From the NCBI RefSeq assembly GCF_027257195.1, contig NZ_JAPDFS010000001.1, forward strand, positions 682,821 to 746,820: 64,000 bases of DNA. The letters run 5' to 3'. The notes below the pieces were generated by a model that was not told the origin of the DNA, did no database searches, and was given only the letters and a program-made list of their open reading frames with translations. Shown here one piece after another: positions 3,245-10,352 of the stretch. A program made the translations under genes and the position numbers. The stretch is from Halorubrum sp. F4. Its GTDB lineage: Archaea; Halobacteriota; Halobacteria; Halobacteriales; Haloferacaceae. Each line of letters opens with the position of its first letter. Within the stretch, counting starts at the first letter, position 1.

Positions 3245-4036
3245 TCAGGCCTCGAGGAAGCCGCCGGCTTCGAGCGCCGACTCCACGTCGGCGTCGTCGT
3301 GGACGACCGCGGACACCGCGCTCGCGATCCCCGTGGGGTCGTCGTGCTGGAAGATCGACCGTCCCATCGAGACGCCGGCGGCGCCGCCGTCCATCGCGCC
3401 GCGGACCATCTCGACGGTCTCGCGGTCCGTTCCCTTCGAGCCGCCGGCGATGACGACCGGGAGCCTGGTCGACTCGGTGACGCGTCCGAAGGAGTCTCCG
3501 TCGCCGGAGTAGCCGGTCTTGACCACGTCGGAGCCGAGCTCCTCGGCGAGCCGGACGGCGTGGCCGAGCGACTCGGGATCCGTGCTGTCGACGCCGGGCC
3601 CGCGCGCGTACGCCATCGCGAGCACGGGAAGCCCGAGCCGCGAGGCGTCCTCGGAGAGCTCGGCCAGCTCCTCGATCTGGTCGGGCTCGTAGTCGGACCC
3701 GACGTTGATGTGGAACGAGACCGCGTCAGCGCCGGCACGGACCGCGGCCTCCGCGCTCGCGGTGACGCGTTTGTCCTGCTCGTCGGGGCCGATCGTCGTC
3801 GAGGCGTTGACGTGAACGATGTATCCCGCGCCGTTCTTGTTGTCGTGGACGCGCGGGGCGATCCCCTTCTGGGTGAGCACCGCGTCCGCGCCGCCCCGAG
3901 TGACGCCGTCTATCGTCGACTCGATGTCGACGAGTCCCTTCACCGCGCCCATGGTGATCCCGTGGTCCATCGGGACGATGAGGTATCGATCGTTCGTGGA
4001 GATCCGGTCGAGTCGTGCCGAGAGTCCTGCTGTCAT
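3245..4036 (-). CDS. aroA': 2-amino-3,7-dideoxy-D-threo-hept-6-ulosonate synthase (archaeal AroA')
   Basis: A 263-residue class I aldolase of the DhnA/FbaB type that starts the archaeal shikimate route from aspartate semialdehyde and a 6-deoxy-5-ketofructose phosphate, yielding dehydroquinate precursors. Active-site residues known from the Methanocaldococcus enzyme are all present: D24 in PMDHG, Y143 in MAYARGPG, and the Schiff-base lysine K173 in VVKTGYSGD; the phosphate loop is SMGRSIFQH. It lies 181 bp downstream of trpA on the same strand, joining the entry and tryptophan ends of aromatic synthesis. CATAAGAG about 25 bp before the ATG suggests it also has its own leaderless promoter. Confidence 0.93.
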   Translation of the reverse strand: MTAGLSARLDRISTNDRYLIVPMDHGITMGAVKGLVDIESTIDGVTRGGADAVLTQKGIAPRVHDNKNGAGYIVHVNASTTIGPDEQDKRVTASAEAAVRAGADAVSFHINVGSDYEPDQIEELAELSEDASRLGLPVLAMAYARGPGVDSTDPESLGHAVRLAEELGSDVVKTGYSGDGDSFGRVTESTRLPVVIAGGSKGTDRETVEMVRGAMDGGAAGVSMGRSIFQHDDPTGIASAVSAVVHDDADVESALEAGGFLEA

Positions 4037-4180: not shown

Positions 4181-4228
4181 CCGCCGCCGCGGGTCAGCGC
4201 GACTCCGCCGCCGCGGGTCAGCGCGACT
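4181..4228. repeat. 2 x 24-bp tandem duplication over the trpA stop codon
   Basis: Two exact 24-bp copies (4181-4204 and 4205-4228), unit beginning CCGCCGCCGCGGGTCAGC. The right copy holds the trpA stop (TCA at 4218-4220 on the plus strand); the left copy is in the downstream spacer. It looks like a slippage duplication of the gene end. Confidence 0.9.
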
Positions 4229-5072
4229 CCGCGGCCTCCGTCCGCGCCGCGTAGCCGCGCTCGGCACCCGCCTTCAGCTCCCGCGAGAGCGACTCGAGCC
4301 GGTCGGCGACCGCCTCCGTCGACAGGTCCGCTTCGACGCCCTCGGCGACGATGTCCACCAGCGCGGAGCCGACGATGATCCCGTCCGCGCCGCCGGCGAC
4401 GATCCGCTCGGCGTGCTCGCCCGACGAGATCCCGAACCCGACCGCCTTCGGCACGTCGTACTCGCGGAGGCGGTCGAGGCTCTCGGTCGTGCTGTCGGCC
4501 ACGTCGCTCTTCGCGCCGGTCGTCCCGAGCCGCGCCTGGACGTAGACGTATCCCGAGACCCGGCTCATGATGCGCTCGAGCCGGTCGCCCGTGGTCGTCG
4601 GCGCGACGATGAACACGAGATCGAGCCCGAACTCGTCGCAGGCCTCCCGCAGCGGGTCGGCCTCCTCGGCCGGGAGGTCGGGGACGACGAACCCCTCCAA
4701 GCCGACCTCGGCGGCCTTCTCGACGAAGTCGCGGGGGCCGTCGCCGTCCCCATACTGGTAGATCAGGTTGTAGTACGTCATACAGACGAGCGGCGCGTCG
4801 ACGTCGAGCTTCTCGACGAACGCGAAGAACCGGTCGGGCGTCATCCCGCCCTCGAGCGAGCGGACGACCGCACCCTGGATCGTCGGCCCCTCGGCGATCG
4901 GCTCGGAGAAGGGAAGCCCCAGTTCGATGACGTCGGCCCCGCCGCGGTCGAGCGCCTCGACGTACTCGAGCGAGGCGTCGTAGTCGGGGTCGCCGACCGC
5001 GAGGTACGGGACGTAGGCGGGACCGCCCTCGAACGCCGCCGCGAGCGCCTCGCTGTTTCCGGTCGCCGGCAT
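4218..5072 (-). CDS. trpA: tryptophan synthase alpha subunit
   Basis: A 284-residue TIM barrel that cleaves indole-3-glycerol phosphate to indole and passes it to TrpB. The catalytic glutamate is E50 in [11 protein letters not shown]. The second acid, Asp60 in the E. coli enzyme (PLADGPTIQ), is here Glu61 (PIAEGPTIQ). The phosphate site is [23 protein letters not shown]. The ATG at 5072 follows the trpB stop with no gap, so the two subunits are translationally coupled. Third gene of trpCBA. Its 3' end lies in a 24-bp tandem duplication. Confidence 0.96.
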
Positions 5073-6377
5073 TCAGATCCCCCCCGAGAACATCGACATG
5101 TCGGGTGCACCCGCGACGTCGCGCTTGTCGGTCTCCTCGATCACCGACTCGAGGTCCTTGTCGCCGCGGCCGGAGACGGTCACGACAACCCGCTCGCCGA
5201 GGTCCTCGGCGTGCTCCTCGAGGTAGCCGAAGGCGTGGGCGGTCTCCAGCGCGGGGATGATCCCCTCGGTGTTCGAGAGGCGGTGAAAGCCCTCGAGGGC
5301 GGCGTCGTCGTCGACCGCGACCGGCGTGACCCGCCCCTCGTCGACGAGGTACGCGAGTTCGGGGCCGACGCCGGCGTAGTCGAGTCCGGAGGAGACCGAG
5401 TGGCTCTCCATGATCTGGCCGTCGGAGTCCTGGAGCAGCTTGGTGCGCGCGCCGTGGAGCACGCCCTCCTCGCCGGCGAAGAGCGACGCGGAGTTGGGCG
5501 CGACGCCCGCCTCCTCGTCGACCTCCAGCGTGGAGCCGCCCGCCTCGATCGCGTGGAGCGCGACGGATTCGTCGTCGACGAACGCCGCGAACGACCCCAT
5601 CGTGTTGGAGCCGCCGCCCGCGCAGGCGACCACGTCGGTCGGGAGGTCGCCCGTCTTCTCGATCGACTGTGCGCGCGCCTCCTCGGAGATGACCGCCTGG
5701 AAGTCCCGGACCATCACCGGGAAGGGATGCGGACCGACGACCGACCCGATCACGTAGTGGGTGTTCTCGACGGTGGTCGCCCAGTCGCGCATCGTCTCGG
5801 AGATGGCTTCCTTCAGCGTACCGCGGCCGGCGGTGACCGGGTTCACCTCCGCGCCGTTGAGTTTCATCCGGAAGACGTTGGGACGCTGGCGGTTGATGTC
5901 GCGCTCGCCCATGTAGATCTCACAGGGCATGTCGAGGTGCGCCGCGGCCATCGCGGTCGCGGTGCCGTGCTGGCCCGCGCCCGTCTCCGCGACGATCCGT
6001 TCCTTCCCCATGTACTTCGCGAGCAGCACCTGGCCGAGGGCGTTGTTCAGCTTGTGTGCGCCGCCGTGAAGGAGGTCCTCGCGTTTGAGATACACCTCCC
6101 GGTCGTAGCGCTCGGAGAGCCGCTCGGCGCGCTGGAGCGGGGTCGGCCGGCCGCCGAAGTCGGCGAGTCGCTCGCGGAACTCGTCCATGAAGCCGTCCTC
6201 GTTGTCGAGGACGTATCGCTCGTAGGCGTCGGTCAGTTCCTCGATGGCGGGCATCAGCGCCTCGGGGACGTACTGGCCGCCGTAGCGGCCGAACTTCCCG
6301 TCGTCGCGGCCGCGGCGTCGGCCGGGGCGACGCGAGAGCTCGGGCGCGTCGTTCGTCGTGGGTTCGGTCTCGCTCAT
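5073..6377 (-). CDS. trpB: tryptophan synthase beta subunit
   Basis: A 434-residue PLP enzyme that condenses indole with serine. The PLP lysine K109 (HGGAHKLNN), the catalytic glutamate E131 (AETGAGQHG), and the phosphate loop GGGSNTMG near residue 255 are all present. The first 28 residues ([15 protein letters not shown]) are an extra basic start common in haloarchaeal copies; the conserved core begins [13 protein letters not shown], so this is the TrpB1 type that pairs with TrpA, not the stand-alone TrpB2. It overlaps trpC by 4 nt (ATGA) and abuts trpA. Confidence 0.97.
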
Positions 6378-7231
6378 ATACGTGTCTCCGGGGAGTCGTC
6401 GGTGGAATGGGTGTCGGTTTCCGCCCGGGTCAGCGCCCGCGTGTTCGCCTCGACGTCGCCGTCCATGATCGCGCTCCCGACGAGCAACGCGTCCGCGCCC
6501 GCCGCCCGCATCCGGCGGGCGTCCGCGGGCGTCGCGATCCCGCTTTCGGCGATCAGCGTGGCGTCGTCGGGGACCTCCGGTGCGACCGACTCGAAGGTCC
6601 CGAGGTCGACGTCCAGCCTCGCGAGGTCGCGGTTGTTCACGCCGACCGTCGTCGCGCCCGCGTCGACGGCGGCGGCGAGCTCCTCCCGGTCGTGGACCTC
6701 GACGAGGACCTGGAATCCGCGGTCGCGGGCGGCCGCAAGTAGGTCGGGGAGGTCGTCGCCGACGAACCGGGCGATGAGCAGGACCACGTCGCTCTCGACG
6801 GCGTCGAGCTGCGACTCCGCCACGAGGAAGTCCTTGCGGAGGACCGGCACGTCGACCGCCTCTCGCACGCGCTCGAGGGTATCCGTGCTCCCGCCGAAGT
6901 GCTCCGGCTCGGTGAGCACGCTCAACGCGGCCGCCCCGCCGGCGACCATCGACTCGGCCAGCTCGACCGGGTCGTCCTCCCGGGTTCCCTCCGTGGTCGG
7001 ACTCGTCGGTTTGACCTCCGCGATCACGGGAACGCGCCCGTCGGCCTCCGCGCGCTCGAAGGCCGCGCGGAGGTCACGCGGATCGACGGCGACGCGGTCG
7101 GTCCCGGGCCCTCCGCCCGCCTCGTTGTCTCGCCCGTCCGCCCCGTCGTCCCGTCCGTCCGTCCCCGCCCGATCGCGGGCCGCGGCCAGGATCGACCGTA
7201 CCGCCGGATCCAACTCCGCCGTATCGTTCAT
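6374..7231 (-). CDS. trpC: indole-3-glycerol-phosphate synthase
   Basis: A 285-residue TIM barrel converting carboxyphenylamino-deoxyribulose phosphate to indole-3-glycerol phosphate, first gene of trpCBA. Active-site segments are [31 protein letters not shown] and IAESGI, and the phosphate loop is [11 protein letters not shown]. Residues 24-44 are a Gly/Asp-rich insertion ([17 protein letters not shown]) near the N-terminus, probably a disordered loop. The ATG at 7231 lies inside a 24-bp palindrome with a TGTACA centre, so repressor binding would cover the start of the message. TrpD, E, F and G are not in the window, so the pathway is split over two loci as in other haloarchaea. Confidence 0.95.
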
Positions 7232-7249
7232 TACTGTACACTAATGAAC
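7226..7249 (-). promoter_or_regulatory. trp operator: 24-bp palindrome centred on TGTACA
   Basis: Arms GTTCATTA (7226-7233) and TAATGAAC (7242-7249) are exact inverted copies around TGTACA (7235-7240); only the two bases next to the core break the symmetry. The left arm contains the trpC start codon. TGTACA is the TRP box bound by TrpY in Methanothermobacter; use by a haloarchaeal regulator is inference. Confidence 0.7.
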
Positions 7250-7254
7250 GTATC

Positions 7255-7265
7255 TGTACATAAGG
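7255..7265 (-). promoter_or_regulatory. trpCBA TATA region with a second TGTACA box
   Basis: On the minus strand CTTATGTACAG lies about 25-34 bp before the trpC ATG, the usual TATA distance for a leaderless haloarchaeal gene. TGTACA at 7255-7260 overlaps it and is exactly 20 bp (two helical turns) from the palindrome core, so two bound proteins would sit on the same face and block TBP. Confidence 0.6.
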
Positions 7266-7336
7266 CTTGCGGGGACGGGTCCCCGACGACGGGGCGCCTC
7301 GGTCGGTTTAACCGTCGCGGGCGCACACCGGAACGT

Positions 7337-8390: not shown

Positions 8391-10352
8391 ATGGACGACG
8401 CCGGGGCCGACGGCCGGCACGCGAGGGATCCGTCCGGCGGCGAGGAGACGATCGATCCGCCGGAGGCGTTCCGCGAATCGGCCGCCGTCGCCGACGCCGA
8501 CGTGTACGACTCGTTCGCGACCGACTGGCCCGACGCGTGGCGGGCAGCCGCCGACCTGCTCGAGTGGGAGCGCTACCCCGAGACGGTGCTCGACGACGGC
8601 GATCCCCCCTTCTACGAGTGGTTCCCCGACGGCCGGCTCAACGCCTCGGTCAACTGTCTCGACCGCCACCTCGAGGAGCGGCGCAACCAGCTGGCGATCC
8701 GCTGGTTCGGCAAGCGCGGCGAGCGCCGGTCGTACACCTACGCGGACCTCCATCGCGAGGTGAACGCCGCCGCCGCGGGGCTCCGGGAGTTGGGCGTCGG
8801 CGAGGGCGACGTGGTCACCCTCTACCTCCCGATGATCCCGGAGCTGCCGGTCGTCATGCTCGCGTGTGCGCGCATCGGCGCGCCCCACAACGTCGTCTTC
8901 GCCGGACTCTCGGCGGAGGCGCTCGCGACGCGGATCGACGCGGCTGACTCCGGATATCTGATCACGTGTGACGGCTACTATCGGCGGGAGGACGCGTTCA
9001 ACCAGAAGTCGCGCGCGGACAACGCCCGGCTCCGGGCCGACGCCGACCTCGCGGCGACGGTCGTCGTCGACCGCCTCGGCGACGAGCTCGAGATACCCCT
9101 CGGCGAGAACGAACACGATTACGGGACGCTGATCGGAGAACACGAGGGCGAGACGGTGGAGCCGGTCGCCCGCGACGCGACCGACCTGCTCTTCGTGATG
9201 TACACCTCGGGAACCACCGGGCGACCGAAGGGCGTCGAGCACGCCACGGGCGGCTACCTCTCGCACGTCGCGTGGACGACCCGGAACGTCCTCGACGTCC
9301 GGCCGGACGACACCTACTGGTGTGCCGCCGACATCGGCTGGATCACCGGCCACTCCTACGGGGTGTACGGCCCGCTCTCGGTCGGGACGACGACGGTGCT
9401 CTACGAGGGATCGCCCGACTACCCCGACCGCGACCGCGTGTGGGACCTGATCGAACGCAACGCGGTCAGCGTCTTCTACACATCTCCCACCGCGATCCGC
9501 TCGTTCATGAAGTGGGGGGTGGAGTACCCGGAGGCCCACGACCTCTCCTCGATCCGGCTGCTCGGAACCGTCGGCGAGTCGATCACGCCGAAGGCGTGGC
9601 GGTGGTACCACGAGCACGTCGGCGGGGGCGACGTCCCCGTCGTCGACACCTGGTGGCAGACGGAGACCGGCGCGATCACGCTGGCGACGCTGCCGGGCGT
9701 CACGCCGATGAAGCCCGGGAAGGTCGGCCCGCCGCTGCCGGGGATCGACGCCCGCGTCGTCGATCGCGACGGCGACCCCGTCGAGCCGGGCGAGACCGGC
9801 TATCTGACGCTCGCGTCGCCGTGGCCCGGCATGCTCCGCGGACTGCGCGAGGGTGACGAGCGGTACCGGCGGGAGTACTGGGTCGAAGGCGAGGACGGGT
9901 GGCGCTACCGCACCGGCGACGGCGCGACCGTCGACGAGGACGGGTACGTGACGATCCTGGGTCGCGTCGACGACGTGATCAACGTCCGGGCCCACCGCTT
10001 CAACACCGCCGAGCTGGAGTCGGCGATCGTCGCCGTCGACGGCGTCACCGAGGCGGCGGTCGTCGGCGACGACGACGGGGGCGTCGTGGGGTACGTGACG
10101 ACCCGCGGCGACGTGGACCCCGACGCCGCCCTCCGGGAGGCGATCACGGCGGAGGTCGCCGGCGTCGTCGCGGAGGTCGCCCGGCCCGACCGGATCGTCT
10201 TCACCCCCGAGCTTCCGAAGACCCGGTCCGGCAAGATCATGCGTCGACTGCTGGAGGACATCGCCCGCGGCGAGGAGTTCGGGGACGTGAGCGCGCTGCG
10301 GAACCCCGAGGTCGTCGGCGAGATCGAGTCCACCGTTCGCGACGGGGAGTGA
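8391..10352 (+). CDS. acs: acetyl-CoA synthetase (AMP-forming) paralogue with altered CoA-site motif
   Basis: A 653-residue ANL-family enzyme making acyl-CoA from acid, ATP and CoA. It has the P-loop YTSGTTGRPKG (about 271-281), the acetate-pocket tryptophan in ADIGWITGHSY, the WWQTETG adenylate motif, GRVDDVIN at the domain hinge, and the acetylatable lysine context PKTRSGKIMRRLL. In the usual VSGHR motif it reads VRAHR (R533-A534), unlike the second copy at 12533, so thioester-step kinetics or substrate may differ. The ATG at 8391 is chosen over upstream in-frame starts because AAAGTATACG lies 25-33 bp before it. First gene of the acetate cluster. Confidence 0.88.
   Translation: MDDAGADGRHARDPSGGEETIDPPEAFRESAAVADADVYDSFATDWPDAWRAAADLLEWERYPETVLDDGDPPFYEWFPDGRLNASVNCLDRHLEERRNQLAIRWFGKRGERRSYTYADLHREVNAAAAGLRELGVGEGDVVTLYLPMIPELPVVMLACARIGAPHNVVFAGLSAEALATRIDAADSGYLITCDGYYRREDAFNQKSRADNARLRADADLAATVVVDRLGDELEIPLGENEHDYGTLIGEHEGETVEPVARDATDLLFVMYTSGTTGRPKGVEHATGGYLSHVAWTTRNVLDVRPDDTYWCAADIGWITGHSYGVYGPLSVGTTTVLYEGSPDYPDRDRVWDLIERNAVSVFYTSPTAIRSFMKWGVEYPEAHDLSSIRLLGTVGESITPKAWRWYHEHVGGGDVPVVDTWWQTETGAITLATLPGVTPMKPGKVGPPLPGIDARVVDRDGDPVEPGETGYLTLASPWPGMLRGLREGDERYRREYWVEGEDGWRYRTGDGATVDEDGYVTILGRVDDVINVRAHRFNTAELESAIVAVDGVTEAAVVGDDDGGVVGYVTTRGDVDPDAALREAITAEVAGVVAEVARPDRIVFTPELPKTRSGKIMRRLLEDIARGEEFGDVSALRNPEVVGEIESTVRDGE

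Follow-up and report, generated by a model that had tools for sequence, protein, structure and literature searches.

The trpCBA promoter of Halorubrum sp. F4 carries a 36-bp array of four TRP-box-like hexamers with an exact 10-bp period, and comparison of sequences makes it very probable that the array serves as operator to a TrpY-type tryptophan repressor, which would control both trpCBA and a second operon, trpDFEG, in trans. The site lies in a stretch of 64,000 nt that was analysed as a whole and is called the window below. A sequence-only reading of the window had already suggested a TrpY-type regulator acting through TGTACA boxes, and this suggestion is now well supported by a TrpY-family protein in all 116 haloarchaeal genomes sampled, by arrays at both trp operons and by the same phasing of boxes in Methanobacteriales.

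The minus-strand sequence of the trpC promoter is CGCAAGCCTTATGTACAGATACGTTCATTAGTGTACAGTAATGAACG. The earlier reading had described a 24-bp palindrome around TGTACA on the trpC start codon and a second TGTACA 20 bp off, and each of these features was confirmed. The palindrome (7226-7249) reads GTTCATTACTGTACACTAATGAAC. Its arms, GTTCATTA and TAATGAAC, are exact over 8 bases and 11 of its 12 pairs match, the single failing pair being the C's at 7234 and 7241 that adjoin the central TGTACA. It covers the start codon, a minus-strand ATG at 7231-7229 (ORF 6374-7231), and the second TGTACA (7255-7260) falls in CTTATGTA. We take CTTATGTA to be a TATA-like stretch and CGCAAG at 7266-7271 to be BRE-like, and from the TATA-like stretch we infer the position of the trpC transcript start. 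The last gene in the table begins 181 bp beyond trpA; its enzyme performs the first step of the archaeal aromatic pathway, and the gene probably belongs to the trpCBA operon and corresponds to OE1472F of H. salinarum.

Table. Features of the trpCBA promoter and the genes downstream of it, in window positions
Feature	Position	Strand	Evidence
Four-box TRP-box-like array, 36 bp, exact 10-bp period, trpCBA promoter	7225..7260	-	model R1 match 7226-7260, E 3.4e-6
Box 1, TGTACA, overlaps TATA-like stretch	7255..7260	-	<=1 mismatch in 113/116 genomes
Box 2, CGTTCA (core GTNC), palindrome left arm	7245..7250	-	GNNC core in 113/116
Box 3, TGTACA, palindrome centre	7235..7240	-	<=1 mismatch in 112/116
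Box 4, TGAACG, on start codon, palindrome right arm	7225..7230	-	<=2 mismatches to TGTACA in 86% of 115
24-bp palindrome, 11/12 pairs	7226..7249		sequence read directly
TATA-like CTTATGTA	7257..7264	-	GCAAG+TATA part 1.39 bits per column over 115 genomes
trpC, indole-3-glycerol phosphate synthase	6374..7231	-	NF041303 (haloarchaeal TrpC), 419.6 bits, cut-off 380
trpB	5073..6377	-	TIGR00263, 577.9 bits
trpA	4218..5072	-	TIGR00262, 245.2 bits
2-amino-3,7-dideoxy-D-threo-hept-6-ulosonate synthase	3245..4036	-	TIGR01949, 358.8 bits

The earlier reading had suggested looking for the palindrome at the trp promoters of relatives, and the site is present there. A sample of 116 haloarchaeal genomes was drawn from the class; trpC was found in every one, all 116 upstream regions were read, and 115 trpC promoters carry the array in the same register and without gaps. 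The exception, genome G021, has no array within 300 bp upstream of trpC, though TrpY is present; it was excluded from the trpC and trpD profiles, which comprise 115 and 44 sequences. Over the 115 sequences, the information content is 1.28 bits per column in the array, compared with 0.09-0.15 across the 80 bp before it and 0.65 across the 20 coding bases that follow. Members of different families are 69% identical in the array, 27-29% identical in the upstream sequence and 45% identical in those coding bases. The start codon falls in the same column throughout (ATG in 114 of 115, GTG or TTG in one). TGTACA with up to two mismatches reaches more than 20% of these sequences only at offsets 9, 19, 29 and 39 (99, 73, 100 and 86%). 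Exact TGTACA occurs at box 1 in 63 and at box 3 in 70 of the 116 promoters, at both in 41 and at either in 92. On this alignment, the conserved unit consists of four TGTACA-like boxes in an exact 10-bp repeat, running from the TATA to the start codon; the spacing puts the boxes on one face of the helix.

The palindrome itself did not hold up as the notable unit. Pairing is best at the right register, where 8.2 of 12 pairs match on average; slid registers give 1.4-5.7. A perfect palindrome had to be rejected as the conserved unit, with all 8 arm pairs intact in only 4 of the 115 sequences overall and in 2 of 15 from the genus to which the window belongs. What the earlier reading took for a long palindrome is instead a local reading of the four-box array, and it results from the near mirror symmetry of boxes 2 and 4 about box 3.

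The genome encodes one TrpY-family protein, of 166 aa, which scores 230.7 bits against a cut-off of 180 for NCBIfam NF053754. Its gene lies beside radA on contig C13, unlinked to trpC (contig C1) and trpD (contig C34). The earlier reading had proposed a search for a TrpY homologue, and a single protein above the NCBIfam TrpY_fam cut-off was found in each of the 116 haloarchaeal genomes. The family is also present in 145 of 148 genomes sampled from the phylum, 140 of them above the cut-off; 24 of these 148 are haloarchaea that also belong to the set of 116. In the order of a Methanobacteriaceae genome, 119 of 120 genomes have it (115 above the cut-off). Since every genome of the sampled class has both TrpY and the trp genes, their presence or absence cannot link them. 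The protein from Halorubrum sp. F4 gives a weak ACT match, below the Pfam cut-off. The fold predicted for the TrpY of the Methanobacteriaceae genome (locus L369) from 48 sequences has a mean pLDDT of 90, with helices at 44-50 and 55-67 in the N-terminal part, and in a fold search the best solved matches to its C-terminal part were proteins with ACT domains; Lrp- and NikR-type regulators matched at rmsd 9-16 and were not used. A sequence search found no solved TrpY structure (best E 0.19). TrpY is predicted to consist of a helix-turn-helix and an ACT domain. No TGTACA was found within 60 nt upstream of trpY at the 31 haloarchaeal loci examined, and autoregulation of haloarchaeal trpY was rejected on this ground. 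Two observations concern individual loci: in Halorubrum sp. F4 a single TGTACA box (L176, 1808) ends on the first base of the radA ATG, beside trpY, and the TrpY of G021 begins with MW, as does methanogen TrpY.

We further examined trpY neighbourhoods in other archaea. A scan of named genomes for TrpY relatives, of which the best 80 of 334 were taken, showed a trp-like gene within 4 kb of the TrpY-family gene at 24 of the 80 loci (TrpA-E sought). trpC, trpD and trpE lie beside trpY in Methanolliviera, Methanoliparum and Hadarchaeum (on one contig only a partial trpE), and in the Methanobacteriaceae genome trpE is divergent from trpY, as it is at 18 further loci fetched from the order of that genome. 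At the other 18 of the 24 loci, TrpY stands beside a trpB-like gene, mostly about 30% identical, which may be TrpB2; such a pair may form a small switch of its own. These trpY/trpB-like loci come from Bathyarchaeota, Methanomethylicota and other archaea (L353-L356, L359, L364-L367, L379, L380, L382, L384-L386, L390, L394 and L398). The Archaeoglobi loci among the 80 showed no link of trpY with trp genes.

The trpY-trpE regions allowed the spacing of the boxes to be counted outside the haloarchaea. From the order of L369, taken to be Methanobacteriales, 30 loci were fetched, and 18 have trpE alongside trpY. In these 18 regions, the distances between hexamers that differ from TGTACA at one position at most are 10, 30 and 40 bp in 17, 14 and 12 cases, the next commonest spacing being 36 bp (6 times) and shuffles giving about 0.11 per spacing; the loci are related, and the counts are not independent. 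At the other 12, trpE was not found nearby, and in 11 of these a single TGTACA stands 28 nt ahead of the start of trpY. The same count over 111 haloarchaeal trpC upstream regions gave spacings of 20, 10 and 30 bp, 108, 68 and 11 times. In other families of the phylum, 33 genomes were searched for trpE and 30 loci were read: three-box phased arrays stand upstream of trpE in 8 of the 30. Shuffles of single bases gave 0.06, a control that underestimates how often AT-rich promoters produce such arrays by chance. The remaining 22 loci are without an array, and in many of them trpE is perhaps not the first gene of its operon.

These arrays bear on the identity of the protein that would bind them. 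The site could be an operator whose main ligand is another amino-acid regulator, such as the Lrp/AsnC protein LrpA2 (trh1), assembling on phased sites. According to PMC4162585, induction of LrpA2 in H. salinarum was 14.9-fold when aromatic amino acids were lacking, and LrpA2 was proposed as a regulator there. PMC6737238 states that up to 2019 no haloarchaeal homologue of TrpY had been examined and that the function of these proteins could not be estimated, which was counted in favour of LrpA2. Phased arrays would suit any assembling regulator, including those of the Lrp/AsnC type. We nevertheless regard LrpA2 as quite unlikely to be the main ligand: TGTACA is the known TRP box of TrpY, the same hexamer recurs with the same 10-bp phasing between trpY and trpE of Methanobacteriales, and the matches listed in a genome-wide search are confined to trp operons, unlike the targets of a global Lrp regulator. 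That search used a 36-column model trained on the trpC and trpD arrays of the haloarchaeal class, with 91 rows thinned for near-duplicates from 127 distinct ones (trpD rows exclude G001, G007 and G021). Among the 150 matches listed from the 116 genomes, which reach an E of about 0.0024, 88 are at trpC, including two reverse readings of sites already counted (G075 and G054), and 62 at trpD. The latter comprise 30 at known trpD genes and 32 single matches in genomes where trpD had still to be located; the loci of these 32 were fetched, examined only for the presence of the trpD gene and all shown to hold the trpD start (20/20 and 12/12). The earlier reading had asked whether the palindrome also occurs at unrelated genes, and none appears among the 150 matches listed; weaker matches include a third in the genome of Halorubrum sp. 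F4. Because the model was made from trpC and trpD sites, it favours such sites, and weaker targets of other kinds may exist.

The trpD promoters weigh on a different alternative, namely that the conserved block is only a core promoter and start context (BRE, TATA, initiator and leaderless ATG) and that the operon is strongly expressed but has no repressor of its own. In its favour, the TATA-like stretch shares bases with box 1, and the ATG and second codon share bases with box 4; these elements would be constrained anyway, so that the contribution of box 4 itself is uncertain; the GCAAG+TATA part is also as conserved as the array (see table). trpD was located in 64 of 64 genomes, and 45 of those promoters were read one by one. 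In the 44-sequence profile, TGTAC-like boxes stand at offsets 10, 20, 40 and 50 in 100, 100, 98 and 73% of the sequences, again in 10-bp phase, with a different conserved stretch in place of a box at the third position and weaker off-phase peaks of 0.36 at offset 25 and 0.25 at offset 52. The cores of boxes 1 and 2 are each kept in 44 of the 45 promoters. The TATA and ATG are placed differently from those of trpC, and the phased boxes are still present. This argues against a mere core promoter, as does the conservation at trpC of boxes 2 and 3, which lie between TATA and ATG. Such a block should moreover recur elsewhere, whereas every one of the 150 matches listed belongs to trpC or trpD. We consider this explanation very improbable. 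G021, whose trpC (L161) is without an array, nevertheless carries a pair of exact TGTACA with 20-bp spacing in front of trpD (L124).

A functionless chance palindrome in an AT-rich promoter, for which one could cite the rarity of perfect arms and the general excess of TGTACA in the window, is almost certainly not the explanation, given the between-family identity in the array against that upstream and the fixed register at 115 of 116 promoters. The window holds 15 copies of TGTACA where 1.3 would be expected; the 13 outside the trpC promoter are all in GC-rich contexts, so the hexamer alone says little, and its over-representation was dropped as evidence. The 36-column model scores the trpC array at E = 3.4e-6, and its one other match is the palindrome read in reverse, which overlaps the array (E 0.0033). 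Two of the other 13 copies of TGTACA, at 9199 and 13344, lie in ATGTACACCTC.GG contexts, and translation by eye from that ATG gives MYTSGTTG, which presumably resembles a motif of acyl-CoA synthetases.

At the scale of the 3.28-Mb genome, pairs of exact TGTACA with 8-20 bp between them occur in only 2 places, the trpC promoter and a site upstream of a plasmid parA. Exact TGTACA-N4-TGTACA is found only at trpD, as its first two boxes. With up to two mismatches, this pattern has 28 forward places against 25 in a reversed control, so the exact match alone was used. The parA site is a cluster of TGTACA on contig C57 (L003, 1360-1524) with two copies 18 bp apart, in a stretch that recurs with 93-97% identity, along most of its length, on plasmids from several genera of haloarchaea; the site is perhaps a partition or replication site. 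This pair was set aside, since 18 bp is off the 10-bp phase and the stretch is shared among plasmids.

The closest known counterpart is the TrpY/TRP box system of Methanothermobacter thermautotrophicus, which Xie and Reeve reportedly described in 2005 for trpY-trpEGCFBAD. In work attributed to Karr et al. in 2008, repression of trpB2 by TrpY is said to need further TrpY assembly and to be blocked by insertions, which would fit phased boxes. The haloarchaeal case resembles this system in its TGTACA boxes on trp promoters, its TrpY-family protein and its phasing in multiples of 10 bp, the last seen in the 18 loci of the order. It differs from the known circuit in the position of trpY, which in Halorubrum sp. 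F4 has radA as its neighbour, is not divergent from trpE and shares no contig with trpC or trpD. The 31 haloarchaeal trpY promoters read are box-less, with no sign of autoregulation boxes, unlike those of Methanobacteriales. Two operons would be served in trans, and the trpC boxes reach the start codon. The Methanothermobacter system is also described in PMC6737238. The same paper presents Tar (TK0271) of T. kodakarensis, which likewise regulates aromatic operons in an archaeon, trp among them, but as an activator and a different protein.

Published observations point both ways for a TrpY-type repressor. PMC4162585 reports joint induction of trpCBA-OE1472F and trpD1FE1G1 in H. salinarum when aromatic amino acids are absent. 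Against the repressor reading counts PMC13147458, where the native promoter of Haloferax trpCBA is called 'not tightly regulated' with reference to Large et al. 2007. PMC6737238 also reports that the TrpY homologue of T. kodakarensis is not involved in trp control, which again counts against; all 116 haloarchaeal proteins pass the cut-off of the NF053754 family, whose relatives include this Thermococcus protein (TK1227). Among the sequence data, the box-less trpY promoters, the array-less trpC of G021 and the 22 trpE loci lacking an array weigh in the same direction. In the Thermococcus locus L381 (2597-3091), the ACT part reads INIVQ, against IRQ or IRY in the other alignment rows shown (about half of 48). 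This may fit the different role of the Thermococcus TrpY and could mark a loss of tryptophan sensing, which we offer only as a lead. No haloarchaeal TrpY operator was found in the literature searched, which comprised titles and abstract openings, most subscription journals lying outside it.

If the array is a TrpY operator, the switch would work as follows. When tryptophan is plentiful, it would be bound by the ACT domain of TrpY, and TrpY subunits would then bind side by side along the boxes. The assembly would cover the TATA box and the transcript start, keeping them from TBP/TFB and RNA polymerase, and with the promoters covered both trp operons would be shut together. When tryptophan is short, the assembly would disperse and both operons would open. 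It is conceivable, at somewhat less than even odds, that TrpY is an ancient assembling repressor whose grammar of 10-bp multiples predates the split of haloarchaea and Methanobacteriales, with tryptophan as the glue between subunits on one face of the DNA. If so, few known repressor-operator pairs would be as deeply conserved as TrpY and its boxes, and haloarchaea would have rewired the circuit from an adjacent, self-regulated trpY to an unlinked, box-less one. The hexamer becomes an operator rule, boxes at multiples of 10 bp, for haloarchaea, Methanobacteriales and some other families of the haloarchaeal phylum. For haloarchaea, genetic model organisms among them, the array and TrpY provide a concrete, testable operator and repressor candidate for tryptophan synthesis, and possibly an endogenous regulated promoter.
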